Assembly: GCF_003967555.1 (NCBI RefSeq)
Contig: NZ_BIFS01000001.1
Location: 5,766,001 to 5,830,000, forward strand
DNA from: Dictyobacter kobayashii
GTDB lineage: Bacteria > Chloroflexota > Ktedonobacteria > Ktedonobacterales > Ktedonobacteraceae
Direction of reading: 5' to 3'
Length of the DNA: 64,000 bases
This document shows positions 3,997 through 61,245 of this stretch, piece after piece (positions within the stretch are counted from its first letter, which is position 1; every line of letters starts with the position of its first letter). The notes below the pieces were generated by a model that saw nothing but the letters and a program-made list of their open reading frames with translations, was not told the origin of the DNA and ran no database searches. The position numbers were made by a program, and so were the translations under genes.

Positions 3997-4025
3997 GGCA
4001 ATGGAGAGAGGAAAAAGCCCAAAGG

Positions 4026-4194
4026 AACACGATTTGTACGTGTGGGGCTTGCCCCCGCTTTTAATCTTCACGCTCGAAAAAGCAATGATAAGGATGTTTT
4101 GCAGCTATTTATTTGAGCGCATAAAGTTATTATTGTTTGTTTTCAGGCAGGAACGGATTAAGCGGGGGCAAGCCCCGCACGTACAGATCGTGTT
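4026..4194. repeat. REP-like inverted repeat pair, locus a
   Basis: Two 35-base arms (4026-4060 and 4160-4194) are inverted copies with two mismatches. The core is TACGTGCGGGGCTTGCCCCC followed by GCTT. About 100 A+T-rich bases lie between the arms. The same arms recur at 40106-40275, 45498-45800, 54995-55459, 57981-58130 and 60884-61040. Short open frames crossing it are not genes. Confidence 0.85.
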
Positions 4195-4417
4195 TCTTGT
4201 TGCGCTCAGTTGATTATCTGGTTGCTGCGTGAGGTGTATTGTGCACGAGGCCGGCATGCTGCGGGTTGTACATGGCAAGTTGGTTGATAAGCCGCATGCC
4301 TATGCCGCCTACAGGGGAACCGTTTCGTGTTGCGGAGGCCTTCGTTTATGGGATGGGACGGGTTCGTGTTGTGGAAGCTTTTTTGGGTTTCGAACATGGT
4401 TTTCTTTCTTTGGGGGG

Positions 4418-39950: not shown

Positions 39951-40105
39951 GTTAGATTGAAAGGATAGGTAGATGACGGCAGCAGACTTTCTGCGGGAGC
40001 CGGGCGTGGGACCAGCGAGTTGGCGCGCAATGGCAGGTTATCCATGAACACTTGAGCCAGCTACCCGACTAGCGCCTGACAATAGATGCTTATAAAGCAA
40101 AAATA

Positions 40106-40275
40106 AACACGACATGTACGTGCGGGGCTTGCCCCCGCTTTTAATCTTCCTGCCCGAAAAATCAACAATAACAATGCCGTGCTCTCATATAAATAGCTGC
40201 AAAATTCTCTTTTTGTTGCTTTTTCGAGCGGGAAGATTAAAAGCGGGGGCAAGCCCCGCACGTACTGATCGTTAT
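40106..40275. repeat. REP-like inverted repeat pair, locus b
   Basis: Arms at 40106-40140 and 40241-40275 are the same 35-base sequence as at locus a. Weaker pairing continues inwards. Confidence 0.85.
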
Positions 40276-40594
40276 TCTTGTTGCGTCCGATGCATGATTG
40301 ATTCTTCAATGAAAAGTATTGGGGACAAGCTCCGAACCTATGCGCCTCGTTATTCTTGTTGCGTCCGATGCATTGATTGATTCTTCAATGAAAAGTATTG
40401 GGGACAAGCTCCGAACCTATGCGCCTCGTTATTCTTGTTGCGTCCGATGCATGATTGATTCTTCAATGAAAAGTATTGGGGACAAGCTCCGAACCTATGC
40501 GCCTCGTTATTCTTGTTGCGTCCGATGCATTGATTGATTCTTCAATGAAAAGTATTGGGGGCAAGCTCCGAACCTATGCGCCTCGCTTTTCTTG
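40271..40594. repeat. Four tandem copies of a 78/79-base unit
   Basis: Unit starts (ttgcgtccga) are at 40281, 40359, 40438 and 40516, with a fifth diverged start at 40595. Copies one and three are 78 bases (ATGCATGATTG), copies two and four are 79 (ATGCATTGATTG). Each contains GGGGACAAGCTCCGAAC, a diverged form of the REP arm. There are no unique spacers, so it is not a CRISPR. Confidence 0.85.
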
Positions 40595-40740
40595 TTGCGT
40601 TTTTCAGATGGATAGGGATAAAGGCGGCTTTTTTGCTGTCGGTAGATAGAGACGAATGGCCTTCTTTCGGTTATAATGGTGCCATTATTTTTATCTTCTG
40701 GATGGACGCGAAGAATTCCAGGGAAAAGGAATTATTTAGT

Positions 40741-41160
40741 ATGAAAGAGCAGATGCTGCTGGATTTTGAGCTGGCTCATAATCGTTTGTTGAGTGCGGCG
40801 CAAGATGCAGCTACGCGGGGCGTGGTCCTGCCTGATGGCTGGAGGGCCTGGGAGATTGTGGCGCACATAGGAGCCTGGGAGGTTGAGGCATCACATCGTA
40901 TTCCTGCTTTACTGGCCGGGGCCGGAAACAAGGATTATGATACCACGGACTTTAACGCGAAGGCTCTGGCCCAGGCGGAGGGGCAGACGTTTGAGCAGCT
41001 GGAGGGGGCGCTGCGCCAGGCTCACCAGCGCTTGCTAAGTTTGCTGGATGCATTGGATGCGCGTCATTTTAATGTGGGCGGATTGGTGCACGATTGGGTG
41101 ATCAATTCTATGAACCATAATCTTGAACATGCCCAGGCACTAGAAGAGGCGGGCGCCTGA
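40741..41160 (+). CDS. DinB-like / mycothiol-dependent maleylpyruvate isomerase-type protein
   Basis: A 139-residue helical-bundle protein. His residues in WEIVAHIGAWE and NSMNHNLEHA sit at the places where DinB-fold proteins bind metal, and LPDGWRAWEIVAHIG is typical of the N-terminal domain. The open frame extends upstream through the tandem repeat, but the ATG at 40741 is preceded by AAAAGGA and is the clear start. Members are thiol-dependent transferases or of unknown role. Confidence 0.7.
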   Translation: MKEQMLLDFELAHNRLLSAAQDAATRGVVLPDGWRAWEIVAHIGAWEVEASHRIPALLAGAGNKDYDTTDFNAKALAQAEGQTFEQLEGALRQAHQRLLSLLDALDARHFNVGGLVHDWVINSMNHNLEHAQALEEAGA

Positions 41161-41191
41161 ATTATCTGTTTCAACCGAACAGGCCAGTCGG

Positions 41192-41234
41192 GAGGGCAAG
41201 CACCTGCGCTAAGAGCGATTTTGTGCTTGCCCTC
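41192..41234. terminator. Bidirectional terminator
   Basis: GAGGGCAAGCAC (41192-41203) pairs with GTGCTTGCCCTC (41223-41234), between convergent genes. Confidence 0.65.
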
Positions 41235-41257
41235 TCTTGCTTGATCGTTTGTCTACG

Positions 41258-42754
41258 TTAGAAAGTCAGGCCATGACGTTGATAGTTCGCCGGGTCCTGT
41301 TCGGGAGGGAGTGATACTACGCGCGAGACAGTATTGAATAACATCGTTTCACGTTCATCGTTTGCATAAGTTGGCCATGGTGGTAGCGTTGTTACATTAG
41401 GATTGCCGTTACGGATGAACGCGATCCAGGCGGCATGCATTTGCTCGGCCAGCGCGTATTCCTCGGCTCCAAAGGTAAAGCGGAACGGAATTTGGAGTGG
41501 GTGAGGTCGGTTCAATGTGTTCCAGACGAATGGTAGCTCCAGGCTATGGAAGGCCCCGTGCGAGGTTTTATCCCAGTCGAAGCGATAGAGCCAGACCGGT
41601 AGATGCTGATATGCCTGCTCCCTGGCCAGATGTATGACCCCGAGCCGGTACAGATAGTCGGTCAGGACGATGGCCCAGGCCTCCTCAGGCGGGTGTTTCT
41701 GTCGGGCCGTCGCATAGGCGTCCGCTGCCGTCGCGCTATTGGAGCCAAACAAGGTGTGGAGTATTTGCCTATCTGGATGGGTCAATTGAGGATCGAGTGC
41801 CATATAGAGCCGGGCCTCATCGCGGTTGGTGCCGAGCAGCAATGGGACTCGGGCCCCCTTCCCCTGTGCCACCGCGTCGAGAGGGTAGTGTGGGAGCGTC
41901 GTACCATCCACTACAGGACCAAAGTAGCGCAGGTGTCTCACACCCCCAATACTCTCGCTTTGGATAAAGCGGATCTGCGCCGCCAGCAGCTCATCGGTTG
42001 AAAGCGTCAGCAACTTCTTCGCGTCATGGGCGCTTAATCCCAGGCCCGCGAGGAAACGGCGCGTAAAACTGGTCGCACTGGCGGTATCACGAGTTGTCTG
42101 ACCCGCTCCACTTTCCAGGATCGCCTGTTGAAAAAAGCCCTGGGCTGCCGGTAGGGCCAGCAAAGCCCCTACACACATCGCGCCCGCCGACTCACCCATA
42201 ATGGTCACCCGGCCAGGATCGCCACCAAAGCGCGCGATATTATCATGTACCCATTTAAGGGCCGCCACGATATCTAACAAGCCAGAATTGCCCGACGACG
42301 CATACTTCTCACCCAGCAGGTCCCCGAGATAGAGGAAGCCAGCAGCCCCCAGGCGATAATTGAGCGTCACCACTATCATATCGCCATCGAAGGCAAACTT
42401 TGTACCATCGTATTGAGGTTCAGAGCCAGAGCCAGAGACAAGTGCTCCGCCATGAATCCATACTAATACTGGACGACGTCCCTGACCCAGGCCAGGCGTC
42501 CAGACATTTAAATACAGGCAATCTTCATCCACCGTAGCCTCGGCGGCCAGCTGTGGATCCAGAGCCTGTAGTGCCCGGGGACCATAGGTGGTGGCGTCTC
42601 GCACCCCCGGCCAGGGTTCAGGTAACTCAGGAGCGCAGAAACGCAATGCTCCAATCGGTGGACGCGCAAAAGGTACGCCCTTAAAAGTCAACACCGGGCC
42701 TTCCTGAGCCCCTTGTAGCTTGCCATAAGATGTATCAACGATGATATTTTCCAT
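41258..42754 (-). CDS. Type-B carboxylesterase
   Basis: A 498-residue esterase of the para-nitrobenzyl esterase/cholinesterase family. The oxyanion-hole motif IHGGALVSGSG, the nucleophile Ser in GESAGAM, an acidic residue in LGTNRDEAR and the His in GAFHSLELPFVWNT are all in order. SEDCLYLN-like text (DEDCLYLNVWTP) is also diagnostic. There is no signal peptide, so it is cytoplasmic. It hydrolyses esters, including xenobiotic ones in related bacteria. AGGGGAG precedes the ATG. Confidence 0.93.
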   Translation of the reverse strand: MENIIVDTSYGKLQGAQEGPVLTFKGVPFARPPIGALRFCAPELPEPWPGVRDATTYGPRALQALDPQLAAEATVDEDCLYLNVWTPGLGQGRRPVLVWIHGGALVSGSGSEPQYDGTKFAFDGDMIVVTLNYRLGAAGFLYLGDLLGEKYASSGNSGLLDIVAALKWVHDNIARFGGDPGRVTIMGESAGAMCVGALLALPAAQGFFQQAILESGAGQTTRDTASATSFTRRFLAGLGLSAHDAKKLLTLSTDELLAAQIRFIQSESIGGVRHLRYFGPVVDGTTLPHYPLDAVAQGKGARVPLLLGTNRDEARLYMALDPQLTHPDRQILHTLFGSNSATAADAYATARQKHPPEEAWAIVLTDYLYRLGVIHLAREQAYQHLPVWLYRFDWDKTSHGAFHSLELPFVWNTLNRPHPLQIPFRFTFGAEEYALAEQMHAAWIAFIRNGNPNVTTLPPWPTYANDERETMLFNTVSRVVSLPPEQDPANYQRHGLTF

Positions 42755-43018
42755 TATTTACTCCCCTCTGAGCTCAAATAATGTGTCACATGTTTATCGA
42801 TTACAAGCATACATGATATGAATTATAAATTTCAATAGCGCAAAAAAAGAAATCATATCCTCCACTTTTTTGAGCCTTATCAGTATAGCAAATTATCTGA
42901 TCAATTGGAGGATGGATATTACCTTGCGGGCTCCAATAAAAATGCAGACTGTGCCGCCTTTCTCTATAGCGCGAAGAGTGGCGCAGCCTGCAGGCGCGTG
43001 GGGCGGGAACTGGTTAGA

Positions 43019-43540
43019 TTAGCCTGGCATAATGCCCATGACCAGCATATTGCCGGTGGTGCCGTCAAAAACCTCTTCGCCACTATTGTAAACTGGCTGA
43101 GGTGTTGGCGTTGATTTTTTGTCGATACGTCCCGTAGGAGGTCCGCTGGGAGCTGGGAACTGACCAGTAACGCGTACATAGCACACGATAGCGTCGTCTG
43201 CTACACCGGTCGACTCGCCTTTCATCAACTGGCTGGCCTCTTTGCTGGATACAAATTTGATACTGGCAATGGATATCGGTGTTACAGAACTGATGCGCAT
43301 ACCCTGGAAGCCATGGACTTTGATGTATTGGCGCACATCGTCCACTGTGAATGTAGGTGTTGTACACAGGTGTGGCTTGATGGCCGGAGCGCCTATGCTA
43401 TTTGCGGGCGCGGTCGGAGGTGTGCAGTGCGTACTGCTGACACTGGATGGCGTTGTTCCAGGTCGGATAATAAACCAGCCACCGATAGCTAGCAAGATTA
43501 GCAGGATAGCGATCACTAAAATAATTGATGGTCGCTTCAT
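43019..43540 (-). CDS. Membrane-anchored hypothetical protein
   Basis: A 173-residue protein with an N-terminal membrane anchor (IILVIAILLILLAIGGWFII) after a short basic start MKRPS. The exterior part has a Thr/Pro/Ser-rich linker with two cysteines, a small folded region (TFTVDDVRQYIKVHGF), then a Pro-rich C-terminal tail. GGAG at 8 bases supports the Met at 43540; the frame continues upstream without support. I recognise no family. Confidence 0.7.
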   Translation of the reverse strand: MKRPSIILVIAILLILLAIGGWFIIRPGTTPSSVSSTHCTPPTAPANSIGAPAIKPHLCTTPTFTVDDVRQYIKVHGFQGMRISSVTPISIASIKFVSSKEASQLMKGESTGVADDAIVCYVRVTGQFPAPSGPPTGRIDKKSTPTPQPVYNSGEEVFDGTTGNMLVMGIMPG

Positions 43541-43658
43541 AATAATACTCCAATTCACTGGATTTATTCTCTTATATTCCATAACGTGAATAGCAAGCAT
43601 TTTGTGACCGAAAGGGAGAAGCAATTTTTAAGTGGGCAACGACGTGAAGCTCTACTTA

Positions 43659-43713
43659 CATGAAAGCGGTAAGGAGCCAGCCCGCAGCGGGCTGGCTCCT
43701 TACCGCTTTCATG
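43659..43713. repeat. 26-base perfect palindrome
   Basis: The stem 43659-43684 pairs with 43688-43713 with loop CAG. It begins 12 bases beyond the stop of the TIR gene, so it probably serves as its terminator. Confidence 0.75.
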
Positions 43714-43724
43714 AAGTTTTGTGT

Positions 43725-45395
43725 TTATTTTTTTGGTGGGACGAGGGCGCTGAGGAGGACATCGAGGGCGGCATTGAATTTTTCGTCGCTCTGCTCAGCT
43801 TCGGTGAAGTCGCAGACCATACGATCCAGCACCGCGGTTTTGAGGTGGCTGGACTGAGGGTTCCAGGTTTCAAAGACATGGCGGTCGAGGGTGAGGGGGA
43901 GCAGGCGTTTGCTGCCACCCTCGCGGCTCTCGCGCGATAAGACCGAGTCGAGCTCATAGAGGACCGCTGGACGTTCAAGCGAGCGTTGGGAGCAGATCAG
44001 GATGGTACGATCAAATTCGTTGACGCCTTTTTGCATCCATTGGTAGGCCTTCTCGCCAGGAACACCGTCCATCAGGAAGAAAAAGGTGCGCACCCCCTTT
44101 TTGTTGAGGGCCTCGTTGAGTCGGTTGGCGAACTCCTGGTCGGGTGCCCCATAGCTGATAAAGGCCGATTGGCGTGGCTGAGCCGGGGTGCTGAGCGCGG
44201 AGGTTAGCAGCATCAGTTCCACGCCAAAGTCGAAACGGCTCCTGCTGGGATCAAAGACCGAGCGTTCGCGGCTCAGGAGCGAGAGGCCACCCTCTTTGAG
44301 TAGCGCATCCAGACCTTTGCGCGTATATTTGCGGGTCAGGTAGAGTCGAATCGTATCCTGGGGTGGAAAATCGACATGGGTGCGATCGGGCAACGAGATC
44401 TTCCTGGTTTCGTTACTATTATTATGGTAGAGGGCCTTAATGCGAATCGCCCGATCCTGTTCGACCGCGCCGATAAACGAGACATCATCCAGGTTGAGGC
44501 GCAGATCGGTATTTTGCAGCAGCGAGCTAGTGACGAACTCAGTAAACGGCCGGCTGCGTGAATACTCATCGGCCGCCTCCTGAACCGCCTCATCCTCTAG
44601 CGTCTCCGTATAGGCCACTTCAAGCAACAGACGATCCTGGGGACGCAACAATTTGGTCAGAATTTTAAGCAGCGTACCATCTTTCTCGAAGTTGGCCAGG
44701 GTATTGCCCAGCAAAGAAAACAGGATAGGATCATCTTCGACAATGCGATCCAGGATGCCGCGGCACTCCTCCACATTGCGTTGACTTGAGAAATCGAGCT
44801 GGATGGGCAGCACCTTGCGTCGTTCCAGTGAAGCCCCCTTGGTCGACTCCTGAACGCCCACGCGCAGCATTTCAGGGCTCATATCCACCGGAAAATAGAA
44901 GAGGTCGGGATGAATTTTATACAGGTCCCGTAACACATCGCGATCCTTATGACCGGTGCCGACACCCAGGCTCACATAATGGTAGTTCTGGCGATCCAGG
45001 CTGGGCAAAATCTGCGTCCAGCGTTCAGGGAATGACTCAATGCTCTCTTTCATCACCAGGTAAAAAGGATCATTACAGGCATGCGTCCAGGCCAGTGTGG
45101 GGCCGATGCCCCAATAAGAAAAACCGGAAGTGATTTCCTTGCCATCACCTGTAGAAGAGGCGCGACCCCGTAAATGTTGTGTCAGAGTGGCCAACTTCTT
45201 AGATTGATCTTCGCCGATAAAGCATAAAGTCCAGCCCACGCGCGCGCTGTTGATAGCCTGTTCGATTCTGCTCAATTCCTGCTGTGGCTTAGTCAGTTCT
45301 GGCCCATTCATTTCGCTTGCCGCTTTCCTCGTATTAATTTGTCCGCCTGCTGCATCGCGGGTTGAGAAGGTCTGGTCTAGATAACCTCGCTCCAT
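43725..45395 (-). CDS. EgtD-like methyltransferase fused to TIR domain
   Basis: A 556-residue cytoplasmic protein. Residues about 45-370 resemble the histidine-specific SAM methyltransferase family (EgtD, Methyltransf_33): SAM loop VSLGVGTGHKDRD (141-153), VDMSPEML (170-177) and LLGNTLANF (228-236). From 410 a TIR domain follows: SAFISYGAPDQEFANRLNEA, a central DRTILICSQRSL, and YELDSVL with Glu481 in the place of the catalytic Glu of TIR NADases. No transmembrane segment is seen. GGGGAG is well placed before the ATG. It stands alone between a REP array and a palindrome. Function is unknown; a role in defence or nucleotide signalling is inferred from TIR biology. Confidence 0.85.
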   Translation of the reverse strand: MERGYLDQTFSTRDAAGGQINTRKAASEMNGPELTKPQQELSRIEQAINSARVGWTLCFIGEDQSKKLATLTQHLRGRASSTGDGKEITSGFSYWGIGPTLAWTHACNDPFYLVMKESIESFPERWTQILPSLDRQNYHYVSLGVGTGHKDRDVLRDLYKIHPDLFYFPVDMSPEMLRVGVQESTKGASLERRKVLPIQLDFSSQRNVEECRGILDRIVEDDPILFSLLGNTLANFEKDGTLLKILTKLLRPQDRLLLEVAYTETLEDEAVQEAADEYSRSRPFTEFVTSSLLQNTDLRLNLDDVSFIGAVEQDRAIRIKALYHNNSNETRKISLPDRTHVDFPPQDTIRLYLTRKYTRKGLDALLKEGGLSLLSRERSVFDPSRSRFDFGVELMLLTSALSTPAQPRQSAFISYGAPDQEFANRLNEALNKKGVRTFFFLMDGVPGEKAYQWMQKGVNEFDRTILICSQRSLERPAVLYELDSVLSRESREGGSKRLLPLTLDRHVFETWNPQSSHLKTAVLDRMVCDFTEAEQSDEKFNAALDVLLSALVPPKK

Positions 45396-45497
45396 AGTTG
45401 TCTCCCCACACCTGTTTTAAACTATTCCTATGATACTACTATTTTACCAGCAATTGTTCATTTTTGATAGGCTAGAAATCACGCTCGGAGAGGAAAG

Positions 45498-45800
45498 AAG
45501 CGGGGCAAGCCCCGCGCATGCAATTATTAATTTTACGAGCAAATAGGAAATAAAACAATAAATGAAATGAAAAAATAAAAACGATCAGTACGTGCGGGGC
45601 TTGCCCCCGCTTCTTTCCTCGGCGCTCGAAAAAAGCGACAAGAAAAGCGATTTGCAGCTATTGCGTTATCTTCGGGCTTGAACGGATAAAGCGGGGGCAA
45701 GCCCCGCACGTACTGATCGTTTTTATTGCTGCTTTCGATGCGTTGATTTATTCTTAAATGAAAAGTATTGGGGGGCAAGCCCCGCACGTACTGATCGTTT
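45498..45800. repeat. REP-like cluster, locus c
   Basis: Four arm copies: a short one at 45498-45520, a forward arm at 45581-45612, an inverted arm at 45689-45720, and another at about 45770-45800. Between the last two is TTCTTAAATGAAAAGTATTGGGG, shared with the tandem repeat at locus b. Confidence 0.8.
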
Positions 45801-45812
45801 TTATTGCAGAGG

Positions 45813-48269
45813 TTAATTAAAGCTATCGGGTGCTGGATTGGCGCTTACGGGCGGTGGGCTGAGGAGGATGTTGATATCGTCGGTATTGGTGGGCAGGTGG
45901 TCGGTGCCGAAGGGGAGACGGATATCGACGCTATCAACGCCAGGTTGCGCGGCCAGATACGTTTTAGCGACGTCGGCGGTGGCTCCTTTGATGGGGAGGC
46001 GTAGTTTTTTGATCTGGGCATCGCTGAAGATGTAGGTCCAGGTGCCCCGCGCTTTAAGCGTGAGATAGACGATACCATCCCTGCCCGGTTCGGTATTGTC
46101 GGGTCCATTAACGGTAATCTGGCCTTGCAGCTGATAACTATTGCCCAGTTTTTTCTGGGCATAGCTATTGAGCAGGGCGAGCGCCGCCGCATCCGCGACG
46201 TTCTTTTGATAGGCTGGCACAACCCCCTGCGCCTTGATACTGATCTGTACTTTGTCGGCAGTCGCGTTGACGGGATCATTGGTATTGACCATAACTATCT
46301 TATAGTCAGGTTGGCCTGCCATGATCTCGCCGGTTTTGAGTTGTTGCTGTAATTCTTTGCCAAGTTGCTGTTTGAGTTTATTGAGTAGATTATTTTTAGA
46401 GCCATCCAGGTCTGCTTGCGAGAAAAAATGGGTTGTGGCATCATCCACACCGCCTGTGAAGGGAGCCGGATTGCTGGTGTACAGAGTAGGTGTGCAGCAG
46501 GCGCCGATGATGGCATTGGCGGAAATATTACCGGCCTGACCGGTCTGGACAGCCACGGCCGGGACACTGAGTCGGCCAGGCTGATTGTCCTGTTTGGGTG
46601 GGATAGAGGCGTCCTGCGTCAGTTGTACCTGAATGCCGTTGCCGGTGGTGAGGATGAGATTTTTCGAGACTGGAATCGCGTTGGGCGAGGTATTAACAAA
46701 TAGCACGGCGCCGTGGGCTTGCTGGCCCTGGGTTTTATTGATACCGGTCGTGGTAATAATGGTCTCGGCGGCCTCGGTGACGGTGAGCAAGCGATCAGGG
46801 ATGGCGCGGGCATTGAGATCGGTCGACTTGATCTGGGGAGAGGCGGTCAGCAAGAAGGCATTCTCCAGGTTGCTCGATTTAGGCGTGATGCGCACCGTGG
46901 CGGCATTGGTCATTCCGGGCAAGGCGAGATCGGAGGGGAAGATACTGGCTCCGAAGACACGCGGGATCAGTAACATGGCCAGCAAGAGCAGGGCGACCAG
47001 GGCTAAAAGTAAGAGGAAACGTCTCCGTTGTCGGGGCGGCCTCGAGGTCGCAGGCTCATCGGTGATGCGTACCCGGTGCCGAGCACGCTCAGCGCCATAG
47101 GGACGCTCAATTCTATCGGATCGCTCATCGGTGATTCTTTCAAGGCGCTCAGGCCGTTCAATGTGGTCTGCTCGCTCGCGGGTCTCACTGACCGCCACCG
47201 GGAGCGGGCTATCGCCGCCGCGTGGCCGTTGATGCATGATAATCGGTCTGGGCGGGTCTGCGGGCGGACGGCGCAGGCCAGGGGCATGTTTATTGGGACG
47301 AACCTCCGCCGCTGCGGCAGGCGACTGGCCAGGCGGTTGATCTTCGGGTTCAAGCTGAATAGTTGGCTTGACGGCCCGATTTGGCTTAACACTTTCCTTG
47401 ACCGGTAGAGGTACCGAGGTACCCTGCAGCGCAGCCAGAAAGGCCACGCGTAAAGCCGCCACCGTAGGATAGCGCTCCTCGGGCAGCTTGGCCATCGCCG
47501 TTTTCACCACCTCATCCAGTTCTGGCGGAATCGAGGCATCGTGTTCGCCCGGCGACGGAATAGGATCATGCAGGTGCATCTCAATCACGCGCACCTCATC
47601 GGGATCATTATAAGGCAGGTTCCCGGTCAGCATTTGATAGAGCAAAACACCCAGGGCATAGATATCGGTCAACGAGGTCACGATCCCCATTGTTTGTTCG
47701 GGGGCCATATAGTGTGGTGTTCCGGGCACCTGCTCAAGAGGGATCGGCTTGCCGACCTGGCTGGCATCACCGGGACGCATGGCCCGCACCAGGCCAAAGT
47801 CGGCCAGGTAGGCATAGGGAGGCATATTGCGCCGCAGCTCAAGCAAAACATTGGAGGATTTAATATCGCGATGGATTAAATTATGTTCATGCGCGTATTC
47901 GACCGCGTCCAGCATCTGCTGGTACATAGTCGAGACCTCACCGAGGCCGGGAAGGTTATGGCGCAGATAGCTGGTGAGGGTCCCACCCTCGATAAACGGC
48001 ATCACCAGGTACAGGATACCCTGTTCATCTCCAAACTCGATCAACGGCAAAATATGTGGATGTTGGAGGCGAGCAACCGTCTTCGCCTCGCGCGCGAAGC
48101 GCCGCCGCATATCAGGATCTGCGGCGTAATCACCCAGGATTACCTTAATGGCGACTCGACGATCAAAGGCCGTGCGCTGCCGCCCCTCGTAGACGGCTCC
48201 CATCCCACCGACACGAATCCGGCGGATAATATCGTAGTTGCCGAGTTGCTTGCCCTCAAGAGACAGCAT
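45813..48269 (-). CDS. Transmembrane Ser/Thr protein kinase with baseplate-J-like exterior domain
   Basis: An 818-residue kinase. The catalytic domain (about 11-270) has Lys42 in VAIKVI, HRDIKSSN (133-140), DFG (157-159) and an APE motif. The Gly loop RIRVGGMG lacks the usual first Gly. A charged linker (290-415, rich in RIER-type repeats) leads to one transmembrane helix at 416-437. The exterior 380 residues hold a baseplate-J/beta-sandwich type region (GAVLFVNTSPNAIPVSKNL, then IPPKQ, GNISANAI, CCTP, FTGGVDDA) and an oligomerisation-like tail. The same exterior domain ends the next two proteins. It is the last gene of the cluster in reading order. Confidence 0.88.
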   Translation of the reverse strand: MLSLEGKQLGNYDIIRRIRVGGMGAVYEGRQRTAFDRRVAIKVILGDYAADPDMRRRFAREAKTVARLQHPHILPLIEFGDEQGILYLVMPFIEGGTLTSYLRHNLPGLGEVSTMYQQMLDAVEYAHEHNLIHRDIKSSNVLLELRRNMPPYAYLADFGLVRAMRPGDASQVGKPIPLEQVPGTPHYMAPEQTMGIVTSLTDIYALGVLLYQMLTGNLPYNDPDEVRVIEMHLHDPIPSPGEHDASIPPELDEVVKTAMAKLPEERYPTVAALRVAFLAALQGTSVPLPVKESVKPNRAVKPTIQLEPEDQPPGQSPAAAAEVRPNKHAPGLRRPPADPPRPIIMHQRPRGGDSPLPVAVSETRERADHIERPERLERITDERSDRIERPYGAERARHRVRITDEPATSRPPRQRRRFLLLLALVALLLLAMLLIPRVFGASIFPSDLALPGMTNAATVRITPKSSNLENAFLLTASPQIKSTDLNARAIPDRLLTVTEAAETIITTTGINKTQGQQAHGAVLFVNTSPNAIPVSKNLILTTGNGIQVQLTQDASIPPKQDNQPGRLSVPAVAVQTGQAGNISANAIIGACCTPTLYTSNPAPFTGGVDDATTHFFSQADLDGSKNNLLNKLKQQLGKELQQQLKTGEIMAGQPDYKIVMVNTNDPVNATADKVQISIKAQGVVPAYQKNVADAAALALLNSYAQKKLGNSYQLQGQITVNGPDNTEPGRDGIVYLTLKARGTWTYIFSDAQIKKLRLPIKGATADVAKTYLAAQPGVDSVDIRLPFGTDHLPTNTDDINILLSPPPVSANPAPDSFN

Positions 48270-48278
48270 TGCGTACGT

Positions 48279-50812
48279 TTATCCTTTCAATGAACCAGAC
48301 GAAACTAGACCCCGCCCGGCTGGTGCTGTCGGTGTGGTATCTGACCCATTGACCGGGGGATTGTTGCCCCCCGGTGCGCTATTTGAGCCAGAAACTGCTA
48401 GCACATCAATTTTAATCTGCGTTGGATCGCCTGGCAAAGTCTTGCTGTCATCGCTCAGCTTGATCGCCACGCTCTTAAAGCCCTTTTGTGCGTTCAAGAA
48501 TGCCTGGGCATCGGCCAGCTTTTTGCCGGCCAGATTGTGGGCCAACTGCGCCTTCTGCGCATCCCCTATCTGATAGGCCCAGGTCCCCTGCGCGCTCACC
48601 AGTAGGGATATATTTCCCTTCTGGCGATTGACGCTGACCACGTTGGTTACAATATGGCCGACCAGGGCGTAGCCGGTCCCGGGATCGCTGGCCGCCTTCT
48701 TCTGCAAGCGGTCTTGCGCCACCTGCTGGGCCCCTTTCTGATCGTAGGCCATACCCGTACAGGTCGCCGAGACCGTCACCGAGGTCGACGTTATATTATG
48801 CCCCTGATCGCCGATCTCTCCTCGATTGCTGGTCACATTCTTCGTACAATTCGGGGTCCCGATCAACTGCTCATTAGCCGTCAACTGCTTAGTGAAATCA
48901 GCCTGTGCCTGTTTGGACAGCGAGGCCACCAGCGGGTTCACCACCGCATCTACATCCCCCTGCTGCACAAACGTATAATCCTGCGGGTCCTGACCACCTG
49001 CGAAAGTATTATTAGTCACAAAGATGAAATTATTGGCATTGCAACAATTTCCATTGAGTGTTCCAGCATCAATATTTCCAATCGTACCGCCAGTAACAGC
49101 ATGTGCTTTAATTGTTACCGTACCAATAGTATTAGTAGCTAGTTGCGCGGCAGGAATTGGAGCTGGTTCATCGGTAATTATGCTTACCCCGGCTCTTGTA
49201 GAAATGACAGTGCCTGAGGCGACTGTAAAGGGTTGGGTCGATCCATTCTTAAATGTTAGTGTGCCATGTGCTTTAGCGGCTGGCGTCTGGGTATGGCCGG
49301 TGCCGGTGACCTGACGTGTCTGGGCTCCTGGGGTAGCGTTAAGGTTTTGCAGGCTGACCTGCAACTGCTGGGCGTTAGGATTGGATGTGACGGCCTGCAT
49401 GACGTAGTTGTCGGTCACCACATGGCTATCCGGCGTGATGGTAATGGTAGCGGCAGTGGTTGAGCCAGCCTTTGGTAGGATACCGGAAATTGGTTGTACC
49501 ACTGTGCTCTGGAAGCTAGCCGGGGCCAGCCAGCCATAGGCTAGCATACCCATTGCCAGCAAGAAAATGAGCAAGAGCAAGAGTAGCAATAGGAGTCGTC
49601 CCGGGCGGCGCTGATTACGTCGGGCCGGGCGCTGCGGAGGATTTCCTCCGCCGCTGGGTGGACGTTGTGCCGCTATCGAGCCGGTATTGCCAGAGGCCGC
49701 AGCTACCGGGGTACCATGATTGGCAGCGGCGGCGCCAGCCAGTCCAGCCGCGCCTATCGCGGCCGCACCCATTCCGCCAGAGCGACGGCGGCCCGCGCCA
49801 TGGGTGGGTGGTGGTACATCAGAGTCGTCCAGTTCGGTTGGTACGATGATGGGTGGCTCGTTGGGTTTAGCTGGATTGCGCACGGGTGTTCGACCCGTGT
49901 TTGTCCCACCAGCGGCGCGTGGATTAACAGGCTGCAGGTCGATGATGCCCGGGCTGCCCCCGGCGGCATTATTCCCCTGTTGCGTGGCGTTGGGATTCTG
50001 TGCCTGCGCATTAGGGGTACGGGTAGCTGGATCGGCCGCTTTGGCTGGTTCATCGTCATCTAGATCGCGAGGTAAAGGGGCCGACCGATTAGCGCGGCGC
50101 ATGCGATCTGCGGTCAGGCCCGCACCTGCTCCGAGGGCAGCGGCTCCCGCGACACCTGTCCCACCGGTTGTGGGGCCCAGATCATCATCATCATCCAACG
50201 TACTGCGATTGGGTGTATTTGGCATGCGCGGCGTCGATGGAACCTGGGGCGAAGGCGTACTGGCGATTGGCGCGCCCGTTTGTGGCTCCGGCTCCTCAAA
50301 CTTCATCGTCGAATTGGGATCGCGTGGCTGCGCAATGCGGCTGGCAGCGGCCCCGGCGGCCGCACCTGCGACCGCCCCGCCTGCCGCCGATTTACCCCAC
50401 CCACCAAAGAAGCGGCTTTTCTTCTCCGGGGCAGGTTCTGGCTGTGGAGCGGGCGTAGCTGGATTGCCACCCTCGCGTAAAGTCTGCGTATAATCTTCCA
50501 AGGATGCATAGACAGGAAAGCGCCGCTGGCGCGCAAATTCTGCCGGCCCGGGGCCGCTCGGGCAATAAAGACCATCTCACCCTGCAATTTGCGGCGGACA
50601 CTTTTTAAATCATCAAAATCCTGTGGACGCTGAAAAGCTTTATTTGGATTGGGAAGAACGATTACAATCTGTTCGCGATTCAATTTTTCCTGGGTCAAGA
50701 TAGCCCCAAGTACACTTTTGCGATCGTCGTTGGGAGAAACATAGATGACACCAATAGTTGCACTTCGAGGGTCATTCATTCCCAGCAGATCCGTGCCGTT
50801 ACCCTGTCTCAT
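48279..50812 (-). CDS. Membrane protein with cytoplasmic Rossmann-like domain and J-like exterior domain, frameshifted
   Basis: The main frame is 48279-50501; one missing base near 50548 joins it to the true N-terminus at 50812. The first 110 residues (EQIVIVLP, FDDLKSVRRKLQGEMVFI, ARQRRFPVYASLEDY) form an alpha/beta fold without kinase motifs, of a type I know from Chloroflexota and Cyanobacteria fused to J-like domains. A long Pro/Ala/Asp-rich linker follows, then one transmembrane helix (LLLLLLLLLIFLLAMGMLA) and an exterior domain closely related to the one of the kinase upstream. It ends 10 bases before the kinase at 45813 begins, so the two are probably one operon. Confidence 0.75.
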
Positions 50813-54484: not shown

Positions 54485-54991
54485 TTGGATGCATTTAAAA
54501 AACCTCGCCGCAAAAAATTTACCCCTCTTAAGCCGATGCGCCTTGAAGGATATGACTATCATTTGCCAGGCGCCTATACCATTACCATATGCGCCCGGAA
54601 GTTACAGCCTTTGTTTCTACACCCTACTTTACGCGACATCTTATATAAAGAATGGGAAAATCTCTCAAAACGCTTTGCCAATGTCGTTCCAGGAACAATG
54701 ATTGTCATGCACAACCATATCCACTGCATCCTCATAATTGAAGGCAATGACCCACACGAAAAAAGCGTCACAGATATCATTGGTACCTACAAATCCATTG
54801 CCGCCAATGCCTGGTTGCGCTACATCAAAGAAACAGGTGATCAACAAAGCGGCAAAATATGGAAAACGCGCTTTTATGATCATATTGTTCGTGGGAAGAT
54901 TGATTTTGATACCCAGACAGCTTATATCCTCAACAATCCAGCCGCATTTGAAGCCAAGCAGAAAAAGCACCATAAAGGAAAAGAAGAATAA
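54485..54991 (+). CDS. REP-associated tyrosine transposase (RAYT), IS200-like
   Basis: A 168-residue HUH-family transposase. The metal-binding motif is His78-Ile-His80 in VMHNHIHCI, the nucleophile is probably Tyr131 in KTRFYDHIVRG, and LPGAYTITICARK matches the N-terminal strand of RAYT proteins. These single-domain enzymes bind and cut hairpin REP sequences and are domesticated, with no ends of their own. The start is a TTG with GGAAGGGAAG 6 bases upstream. A cluster of REP-like repeats begins 10 bases after the stop. Confidence 0.85.
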   Translation: MDAFKKPRRKKFTPLKPMRLEGYDYHLPGAYTITICARKLQPLFLHPTLRDILYKEWENLSKRFANVVPGTMIVMHNHIHCILIIEGNDPHEKSVTDIIGTYKSIAANAWLRYIKETGDQQSGKIWKTRFYDHIVRGKIDFDTQTAYILNNPAAFEAKQKKHHKGKEE

Positions 54992-54994
54992 AAT

Positions 54995-55459
54995 CCAAAA
55001 TGTACGTGCGGGGCTTGCCCCCGCTTTATTCCTCGCCAAACGATAAGGGAGAATAAAAGATGTTATTGTTAATTTTTCGGGAATAGAGGGAGGAAGCGGG
55101 GGCAAGCCCCGCACGTACAGGTCTTTTTTATTGTTGATTTATTTCTTGCCAAACGATAAGGGATAATAAAAGATGTTATTGTTGATTTGTCGGGAATAGA
55201 GGGAGGAAGCGGGGGCAAGCCCCGCACGTACAGGTCTTTTTTATTGTTGATTTATTTCTTGCCAAACGATAAGGGAGGATAAAAGATGTTATTGTTAATT
55301 TTTCGGGAAGGGAGGGAGGAAGCGGGGGCAAGCCCCGCACGTACAGGTTATTTTTATTGTTGATTTATTCCTCGCTAAGCGATTAAAAAAGAATAAAAGA
55401 TGTTATTGTTGATTTGTCGGTAGGGGAGGTTAAAAGAGCGGGAAGCCCCCGCACGTACA
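54995..55459. repeat. REP array next to the RAYT gene, locus d
   Basis: A forward arm at about 55000-55027 is followed by inverted arms at 55094, 55207, 55320 and about 55435. The first three are exactly 113 bases apart, so a unit of arm plus A+T-rich spacer is tandemly repeated. The arm is AAGCGGGGGCAAGCCCCGCA followed by CGTACA. Confidence 0.9.
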
Positions 55460-55470
55460 TTTTGGGGGGG

Positions 55471-57879: not shown

Positions 57880-57980
57880 GGTAAAAAGCAACAATGCCAT
57901 TCATTTAGGGGATAGATGAATTATTCTAATGTAGCGAAAAAAGAGCATTATGTCTTTTAAGAAAGAGCAGCAATAAAAAA

Positions 57981-58130
57981 GATCAGTACGTGCGGGTCTT
58001 GCCCCGCTTCATCCGTCCCATCTCGAACGAAAACAATAATTAATGCTATGGCTCGAATTATATACCTGCATATTGTTATTGTTGCTTTTGCGGGTGGGGG
58101 CGCAGGAAGCGGGGCAATCCCCGCACGTAC
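57981..58130. repeat. REP-like inverted repeat pair, locus e
   Basis: A forward arm at 57981-58010 and an inverted arm at 58106-58130, both with one lost G compared with the other loci. Confidence 0.75.
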
Positions 58131-58151
58131 AATTCGTTATTATTGTGGCTT

Positions 58152-59140
58152 TTACGAGTTGGCGGGGAAGTCGCTGGTAATGGCCCGGGCATAGACGGCC
58201 GGATCTACATTGCCGCCGCTGATGATGCAGCAGACACGCTTACCACGGAAGCGCTCCGGTTGGGTTAGCAGGGCACCGAGGGCCAGGCCACCGGTCGGCT
58301 CTATCTTGAGATTAGAGTAGAGGAAACAATAGCTTAAGGCCGCCATGGTCTGCTCATCGGGACCTCAACGATATCGGCCAGCCCACGCTGCAGTATCTCC
58401 CAGTTAAGTTTTCCCAGGCTAATGGTGCGTGCGCCATCGGCCACGGTCGCGGGTTCAGCCTCATTCTTCACCAGGTGGCCGGTTCGCAATGAACGTGCCG
58501 CGTCATTGCCGGCCAGCGGTTCCGCGCCCACGATCTCGGTCGTGGCCTCCAGGTAGTCTCGTGCCACCACGATGCCGGAGCTCAAGCCACCCCCGCCAAC
58601 TGGAACAACAATCGTATCAAAAGGGCCGAGCGCCAGAATCTCGTGGCCCAGGGTTGAATTGCCCGCTACCACCCGATAATCATCATAGGCCTGCGCCCAG
58701 AAGGCATCCGGATATTGCTCCAACAACTGCGCCACGCGTTCTGCCCGGCTGATCTGGTGTACATCGATCAGGTCAACTGTGCCACCATAGGATTGGACGG
58801 CCGCTATTTTTACCTGGGCCGAGGTTTCCGGCATCACCACCGTGCACGACTTATCCAGCAACTTGCAGGCATAAGCCACCGCCTGCCCAAAGTTGCCCGA
58901 AGAAGCTGTCACGATCCGTGTCTGTGGCACGCTTGAAAGCAGATTATAAGCGGCCCTGAACTTAAAGCTACCGGTATGTTGCAGCGATTCGCTGGCGAGC
59001 GTTATTTCACAGCCCAGCTCCGCTGATAGGCGCGTTGCCAGCGTAAACAAGGTTGGGCGTATAAACGTTGGCAGCGTCTGCCAGACCTGCGCCACATATG
59101 CATTATTCAACTCTGGTGCTGATGGAAAAGAAGCAAGCAT
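58152..59140 (-). pseudogene. Threonine/serine dehydratase, frameshifted
   Basis: About 330 residues of a fold-type-II PLP enzyme. The PLP lysine is in GSFKFRAAYN, the substrate loop is ASSGNFGQAVAY, and the phosphate-binding loop is VPVGGGGLSSG. That combination is typical of threonine dehydratases and related serine racemases, which deaminate to 2-oxobutyrate. One base is missing near 58361; after it the last 60 residues (TMAALSYCFLYSNLKIEPTGG) continue in the expected way. There is no C-terminal regulatory domain. Confidence 0.88.
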
Positions 59141-60803: not shown

Positions 60804-60883
60804 AATATATGCGAGCTAGGCGCAAAAGCATCAATAAAAACGAAGCGTCCCCATCATAACGTAAAAGCAACAATAACAACGTT

Positions 60884-61040
60884 CTGTACGTGCGGGGCTT
60901 GTCCCCGCTTCCTCCGCTCCCAGTCGCAAAAGCAACAATAATAAAGCGATGTGCTCAACCAAATAGCTGCAAAATCTTTTTATTGTTAATTTTACGAGCG
61001 GGGACGTAGAAAGCGGGGGCAAGCCCCACACGTACAGATC
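60884..61040. repeat. REP-like inverted repeat pair, locus f
   Basis: A forward arm at 60884-60910 (one change, GTCCCC) and an inverted arm at 61011-61040. A degenerate arm follows near 61088. Confidence 0.8.
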
Positions 61041-61245
61041 TTGTTTATTTGGGCTTTTAATAATGGGAAGGGTAAAAGTAGAACAAGCCTGCACGTACGG
61101 GTGCGATGAATTGCTTATAGATGACGTTATGTATTGTAGTGTTTGATTAGAAAATTGCAGCTATAAAGTTAGATTTACCTGCCATATTTTGATGTGTTAT
61201 ACTGTGAGTGCGTCTGGATATATTGAGTCAAATGAGGAGACTGCT

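Follow-up and report, generated by a model that had tools for sequence, protein, structure and literature searches.

A methyltransferase-TIR fusion in Dictyobacter kobayashii as a candidate one-gene conflict protein

A single gene of Dictyobacter kobayashii encodes a divergent member of the EgtD methyltransferase family joined to a TIR domain, and the same architecture is found in a second genus of the Ktedonobacteraceae. The gene is located in a stretch of 64,000 nt (contig NZ_BIFS01000001.1), here called the window, to which all coordinates without a locus name refer. With a rough probability of 0.42, and thus tentatively, its product can be read as a solitary one-gene conflict protein, in which the TIR domain would be the NAD-consuming effector and the methyltransferase half a module for control or modification that depends on SAM and a ligand. 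TIR domains are the parts of bacterial and plant immune proteins that cut NAD. Several signals derived from NAD are known to be their products, and what is sensed or made depends on the domain attached to them. TIR domains with varied partners are already known. If the partner depends on SAM, the fusion would tie methyl-donor metabolism to TIR immunity or hint at NAD-derived messengers that carry methyl groups. The literature searched, which included few subscription papers, contained no EgtD-type methyltransferase as a TIR partner, in agreement with an earlier note on this DNA that knew of no described system with this pairing.

The fusion gene and its occurrence

The gene is a 556-codon frame on the minus strand that starts at 45395 and ends at 43725, with 556 aa followed by a stop; read on the plus strand, the same interval contains many stops. 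Pfam recognizes Methyltransf_33 (PF10017) at residues 102-373 (4.6e-16, 59.2 bits versus a gathering cut-off of 23) and TIR_2 at residues 412-540 (8e-17, 62 bits versus a cut-off of 28). The minus-strand ORF, the Pfam matches and the orthologue confirm the earlier claim of one unbroken frame carrying both domains, and the residue positions given with it (methyltransferase motifs at 141-153, 170-177 and 228-236, TIR start at 410, Glu481) are all correct. The features are as follows.

43725-45395, minus strand: methyltransferase-TIR fusion gene, 556 aa, stop codon included (Pfam, ORF; orthologue at 62% identity)
45402-45407, minus strand: Shine-Dalgarno-like GGGGAG that precedes the ATG by 7-12 nt (seen in the sequence itself)
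44277-45092, minus strand: Methyltransf_33 domain, residues 102-373 (Pfam 4.6e-16; EgtD profile match)
44940-44969, minus strand: SAM-binding motif LGVGTGHKDR, residues 143-152 (EgtD Gly86 and Lys92 correspond to Gly144 and Lys150; identical in the orthologue)
44340-44342, minus strand: Tyr352 at the position of EgtD Glu282, with Thr354 at that of EgtD Ser284 (alignments)
43743-44168, minus strand: TIR domain with C-terminal extension, residues 410-551 (Pfam 8e-17; Foldseek 1.00)
43953-43955, minus strand: Glu481, equivalent of AbTir Glu208 (alignments)
43965-43967, minus strand: Ala477, equivalent of AbTir Trp204, Pro in the orthologue (alignments)

One orthologue with both domains in one frame was found in a Ktedonobacteraceae MAG of a different genus (JACDAE010000292.1, L001/L003). 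It was the only yield of a set of contigs from 84,980 species, searched by exact-peptide seeding, which reaches close relatives only. Since the same architecture occurs in this second genome, the fusion is neither an artefact nor a chance event. Identity between the two proteins is 61% in the methyltransferase part (224/365) and 63% in the TIR part (93/147), with 2 of 12 linker positions identical. With a dN of 0.28 and 0.27 for the methyltransferase and TIR halves, respectively, and saturated dS, the two halves are under equally strong constraint, so selection maintains both about equally. Third-position identity is 0.40 (methyltransferase) and 0.35 (TIR), compared with 0.72-0.81 at codon positions 1 and 2.

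The full-length fusion is rare. It is single-copy in its own genome and is present in 2 of 47 Ktedonobacterial genomes; the same two copies are the only ones among 400 sampled Chloroflexota genomes. No full-length relatives were found in plasmids, phages or IMG/VR viral contigs. The neighboring genes are a carboxylesterase, a small membrane-anchored protein and Ser/Thr kinases in D. kobayashii, and a sigma factor and a receptor-like protein next to the orthologue. As the two copies have no neighboring genes in common, nothing points to an obligate partner, and from its gene context the fusion looks like a one-gene system. The scanned neighbors of the fusion gene include no recognizable defence island. 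Nor do those of either copy form a recognizable housekeeping pathway, the setting that the earlier note held to be incompatible with its interpretation.

A search of window positions 40000-49000 for known RNA families found none. Palindromic intergenic repeats with the core GCGGGGCAAGCCCCGCACGTACTGATCG form a family at window positions 4010-4205, 40050-40600, 45480-45815, 54960-55460, 57966-58152 and 60864-61057, and one of these clusters lies just upstream of the fusion gene.

The methyltransferase half

The label 'EgtD-like' given in the earlier note is valid at the family level only. Membership in Methyltransf_33 stands, also for the orthologue (55.6 bits at the Pfam cut-off of 23), whereas the EgtD equivalog TIGR03438 is matched with 37.8 bits against a cut-off of 290.9. 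With this score, and with Glu282 replaced by Tyr352, the METHYLTRANSFERASE half was rejected as a true EgtD. A separate, typical EgtD (360 bits to PF10017) is encoded in the same genome beside EgtB (G000:C1:312044); no EgtB was found among the scanned neighbors of the fusion gene.

The methyltransferase half was aligned to M. tuberculosis EgtD (7SCF) and 17 Ktedonobacterial EgtDs. EgtD Tyr56, Thr163, Asn166 and Ser284 reportedly contact the bound amino acid; of this backbone site, Tyr56 (Tyr112), Thr163 (Thr232) and the amine-binding Asn166 (Asn235) are kept, and Ser284 is replaced by Thr354. A counterpart of EgtD Tyr206 is probably kept as well, with alignments that differ between methods. 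EgtD Tyr39, Gly86, Lys92, Asp113, Asp141 and Phe142, which line the SAM site, are all conserved as Tyr94, Gly144, Lys150, Asp171, Asp201 and Phe202.

The Glu282 position differs. It is occupied by Tyr352 in four alignment methods (P0001) and in three (P0002), with Tyr in both copies, as the Ser284 position is Thr in both, and Glu282 is invariant among the EgtDs aligned here. Glu282 is linked to substrate selectivity and forms the histidine pocket pair together with Ser284; an engineered EgtD (M252V/E282A) was solved with tryptophan (title of PDB 4PIP). From these residues, the simplest inference is that the enzyme framework serves a substrate which resembles an amino acid but is not histidine, and the fusion is probably not a histidine enzyme. 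The predicted structure of this half has a pLDDT of about 40 in two AlphaFold runs with 2-3 sequences, which is too low for pocket arguments. In the tree, its branch to EgtD amounts to 3.1 changes per site.

The TIR half and the preferred reading

A TIR fold is predicted for the C-terminal half (AlphaFold, pLDDT about 60-87), as the earlier note had proposed, with a Foldseek probability of 1.00 to BtpA, AbTir, PdTIR and the SPARTA TIRs. Glu481, the counterpart of the catalytic AbTir Glu208, is kept in the only orthologue, and the surrounding ELDxVLSRESREGG is kept across 62% identity. Two further positions have changed. AbTir Trp204, four residues before the Glu and present in nearly all close relatives, is Ala477 here and Pro in the orthologue, and AbTir Asp167 aligns with Phe in the fusion and is replaced in both copies. 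Formation of 2'cADPR by AbTir requires Trp204; the W204A mutant has reduced NADase activity and produces a non-cyclic ADPR-RNA, and much or all of the NADase activity disappears in W204A and D167A (PMC11374754, PMC10937652). By analogy, the TIR half could be inactive. However, the equivalent Trp is dispensable in TcpC (PMC11374754, PMC10937652), and Asp167 is also absent from the pentapeptide-repeat-TIR family.

The fusion TIR is homologous to Ktedonobacterial pentapeptide-repeat-TIR proteins over its full length including the C-terminal tail, and it derives from that local family. Since this TIR family otherwise sits behind pentapeptide repeats, the N-terminus represents a swapped module. Modular TIR conflict proteins typically swap modules. 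The D. kobayashii genome contains 14 TIR_2 matches. One pentapeptide-TIR of this genome (L052, G000:C1:1389613-1390011) has neither the Trp nor the catalytic Glu and is a probable pseudo-TIR. Another pentapeptide-repeat-TIR is encoded on a predicted viral contig (L055:2452-3444, IMGVR_UViG_3300048597_000412) that by eye appears to encode phage tail-type proteins.

ThsB proteins linked to His-ADPR are reported to have Tyr in the active site at a position that holds Phe or Ala in NADase TIRs (PMC11204291). Judged by its motif, the residue of the fusion that would take this place in the first TIR strand is Phe412. Together with Tyr at the Glu282 position in both copies and the separate true EgtD beside EgtB, this speaks against the shared histidine-type substrate suggested in the earlier note. 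The histidine link is the weakest part of an interpretation that is partly supported overall. Its alternative, a sensor joined to a toxic NADase, stands and comes close to the reading preferred here.

The reading that ranks second treats the TIR domain as a catalytically weak, multimerizing scaffold and the methyltransferase as the functional enzyme, whose substrate would be a small molecule or a macromolecule. It is unlikely: the replacement of the AbTir-critical Asp167 and Trp204 in both copies and the fully kept SAM site fit it, but a pure scaffold need not retain Glu481 and its flanking motif across 62% identity, and those close pentapeptide-TIRs that lost the Trp (L052, L072) have lost the Glu too, unlike the fusion.

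The preferred reading remains the one-gene conflict protein, with a role that would probably be anti-phage. In its favor are the architecture conserved between two genera with equal constraint on its halves, the swapped N-terminal module, the retained SAM site, backbone site and Glu481 alongside the changes at EgtD Glu282 and AbTir Trp204, the lack of neighbors common to the two copies, and the 14 TIR_2 matches of the genome; the replaced Trp204 and Asp167, the lack of a recognizable defence island, the mere two known copies and the low-confidence methyltransferase model count against it. In the proposed mechanism, the divergent Methyltransf_33 domain would hold the N-terminal place that pentapeptide repeats occupy in the local TIR family, and it would bind SAM together with an amine or a ligand resembling an amino acid, but not histidine. 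Self-assembly of the TIR domain would be controlled by whether the methyltransferase half is occupied or active. The assembled TIR would then cleave NAD+ to ADPR and nicotinamide, or perform base exchange, rather than form canonical cADPR. Cells under infection or stress would thereby lose NAD or form a non-cyclic nucleotide product.

Parallel clusters and comparison with known systems

A PF10017 scan of Chloroflexota found further divergent members. In two genomes from different Chloroflexota families, G341 and G318, divergent methyltransferases (L107:3989-4963 and L109:4568-5482, respectively) carry Phe at the Glu282 position in the alignments. Each is clustered on one strand with the same set of partners:

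L107:3459-6703 (G341): small membrane protein, divergent EgtD-like methyltransferase, NDT/TIR-like domain and second class I methyltransferase
L109:3156-8765 (G318): small membrane protein, divergent EgtD-like methyltransferase, NDT/TIR-like domain and second class I methyltransferase

The NDT/TIR-like domain scores just below the cut-off of Pfam Nuc_deoxyrib_tr, and its best PADLOC match is the model 'Effector, TIR'. TIR and NDT domains are reportedly distantly related (PMC13174449). The small protein has two apparent membrane helices and belongs to Pfam 8xMP in G341 and to no Pfam family in G318; a search for literature on 8xMP found none. The second class I methyltransferase occurs only in G341 and G318 among 399 sampled genomes. 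We know of no published name for this combination, and the clusters are a candidate undescribed conflict system on the basis of their gene content. In G341, a transposase-like gene (L107:6615-7532, IS1595-like by eye) lies at the 3' end of the NDT-methyltransferase gene, and the remainder of the second methyltransferase resumes downstream (G341:C1:133480-133818); the NDT-methyltransferase gene thus looks interrupted, and this copy may be broken.

In a further genome (G056, L108:4316-6167), the gene of another divergent Methyltransf_33 protein overlaps one that encodes the restriction domains Mrr_N and Mrr_cat. Matches in G556 and G310 and on plasmids proved to be true EgtDs. The tree, with its long branches, does not show a common clade of the fusion methyltransferase with those of G341 and G318.

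The parallel clusters support, but do not prove, a functional tie between EgtD-like methyltransferases and NADase-fold domains. Because the D. kobayashii genome lacks an 8xMP match as well as any convincing homologue of the second methyltransferase, the fusion gene is not a copy of the cluster.

These clusters bear on the reading ranked third, a signal-making pair, which is also unlikely. Here, the methyltransferase would methylate an amino acid or amine to which the TIR domain joins ADP-ribose by NAD+ base exchange, or it would methylate what the TIR domain produces, so that a methylated ADPR-type messenger results. Base exchange with imidazole compounds is documented for TIR domains, as is His-ADPR as a messenger (PMC11204291), the methyltransferase keeps its amino-acid-backbone residues, and the two clusters, from unrelated Chloroflexota, resemble a signal plus effector layout. 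Against this, the two copies of the fusion have no downstream effector gene in common, the cluster's 8xMP and second methyltransferase lack convincing counterparts in the host, Phe412 stands in the presumed place of the Tyr reported for His-ADPR-type ThsB, and the methyltransferase lacks Glu282.

More broadly, divergent EgtD-family methyltransferases and TIR/NDT-fold NAD enzymes might constitute an undescribed immune signaling module whose messenger is built from NAD+, SAM and an amino acid. In Ktedonobacteria the two would be joined in one protein, and in other Chloroflexota they would be separate genes clustered with those of a second methyltransferase and a membrane protein; this is a rather improbable generalization. 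Since divergent EgtD-like methyltransferases recur beside TIR/NDT-like domains, several systems are available for testing the idea. Enzyme folds can be reused by immune sensors. Ranked last among the readings, and improbable, is a pseudo-enzyme that senses SAM/SAH levels or a phage protein without methyl transfer: the lost Glu282 and the long branch to EgtD agree with it, but nearly all of the catalytic frame, with Tyr56, Asn166, Ser/Thr284 and the SAM site, is kept, beyond what pure binding requires.

Compared with EgtD (PF10017/TIGR03438; PDB 4PIM, 7SCF), the fusion belongs to the same Pfam family and shares the SAM site and most of the backbone site. It differs in its low equivalog score (37.8 versus 290.9), Tyr in place of Glu282, the attached TIR domain and the lack of an adjoining EgtB, and the host EgtD is separate. 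The pentapeptide-repeat-TIR proteins of Ktedonobacteria (L004-L009, L052; L055 on the viral contig) are its closest counterparts on the TIR side, homologous through the C-terminal extension, whereas its N-terminus is a methyltransferase and it has lost the Trp that precedes the catalytic Glu. The TIR fold and catalytic Glu are also those of AbTir and other bacterial TIR NADases, but in the fusion Trp204 and Asp167 are replaced and a methyltransferase is added. The likeness to Type II Thoeris (ThsB making His-ADPR, TM-macro ThsA) lies in the idea of TIR plus histidine chemistry; the fusion has Phe instead of Tyr in the first TIR strand (position inferred), its methyltransferase is not of the histidine type by its residues, and no TM-macro ThsA was found among the scanned neighbors. 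Like the fusion, the G341 (L107) and G318 (L109) clusters pair a divergent EgtD-like methyltransferase lacking Glu282 with an NADase-fold domain; in contrast, they consist of separate genes, carry an NDT-type domain rather than TIR_2, and include an additional methyltransferase and a membrane protein.
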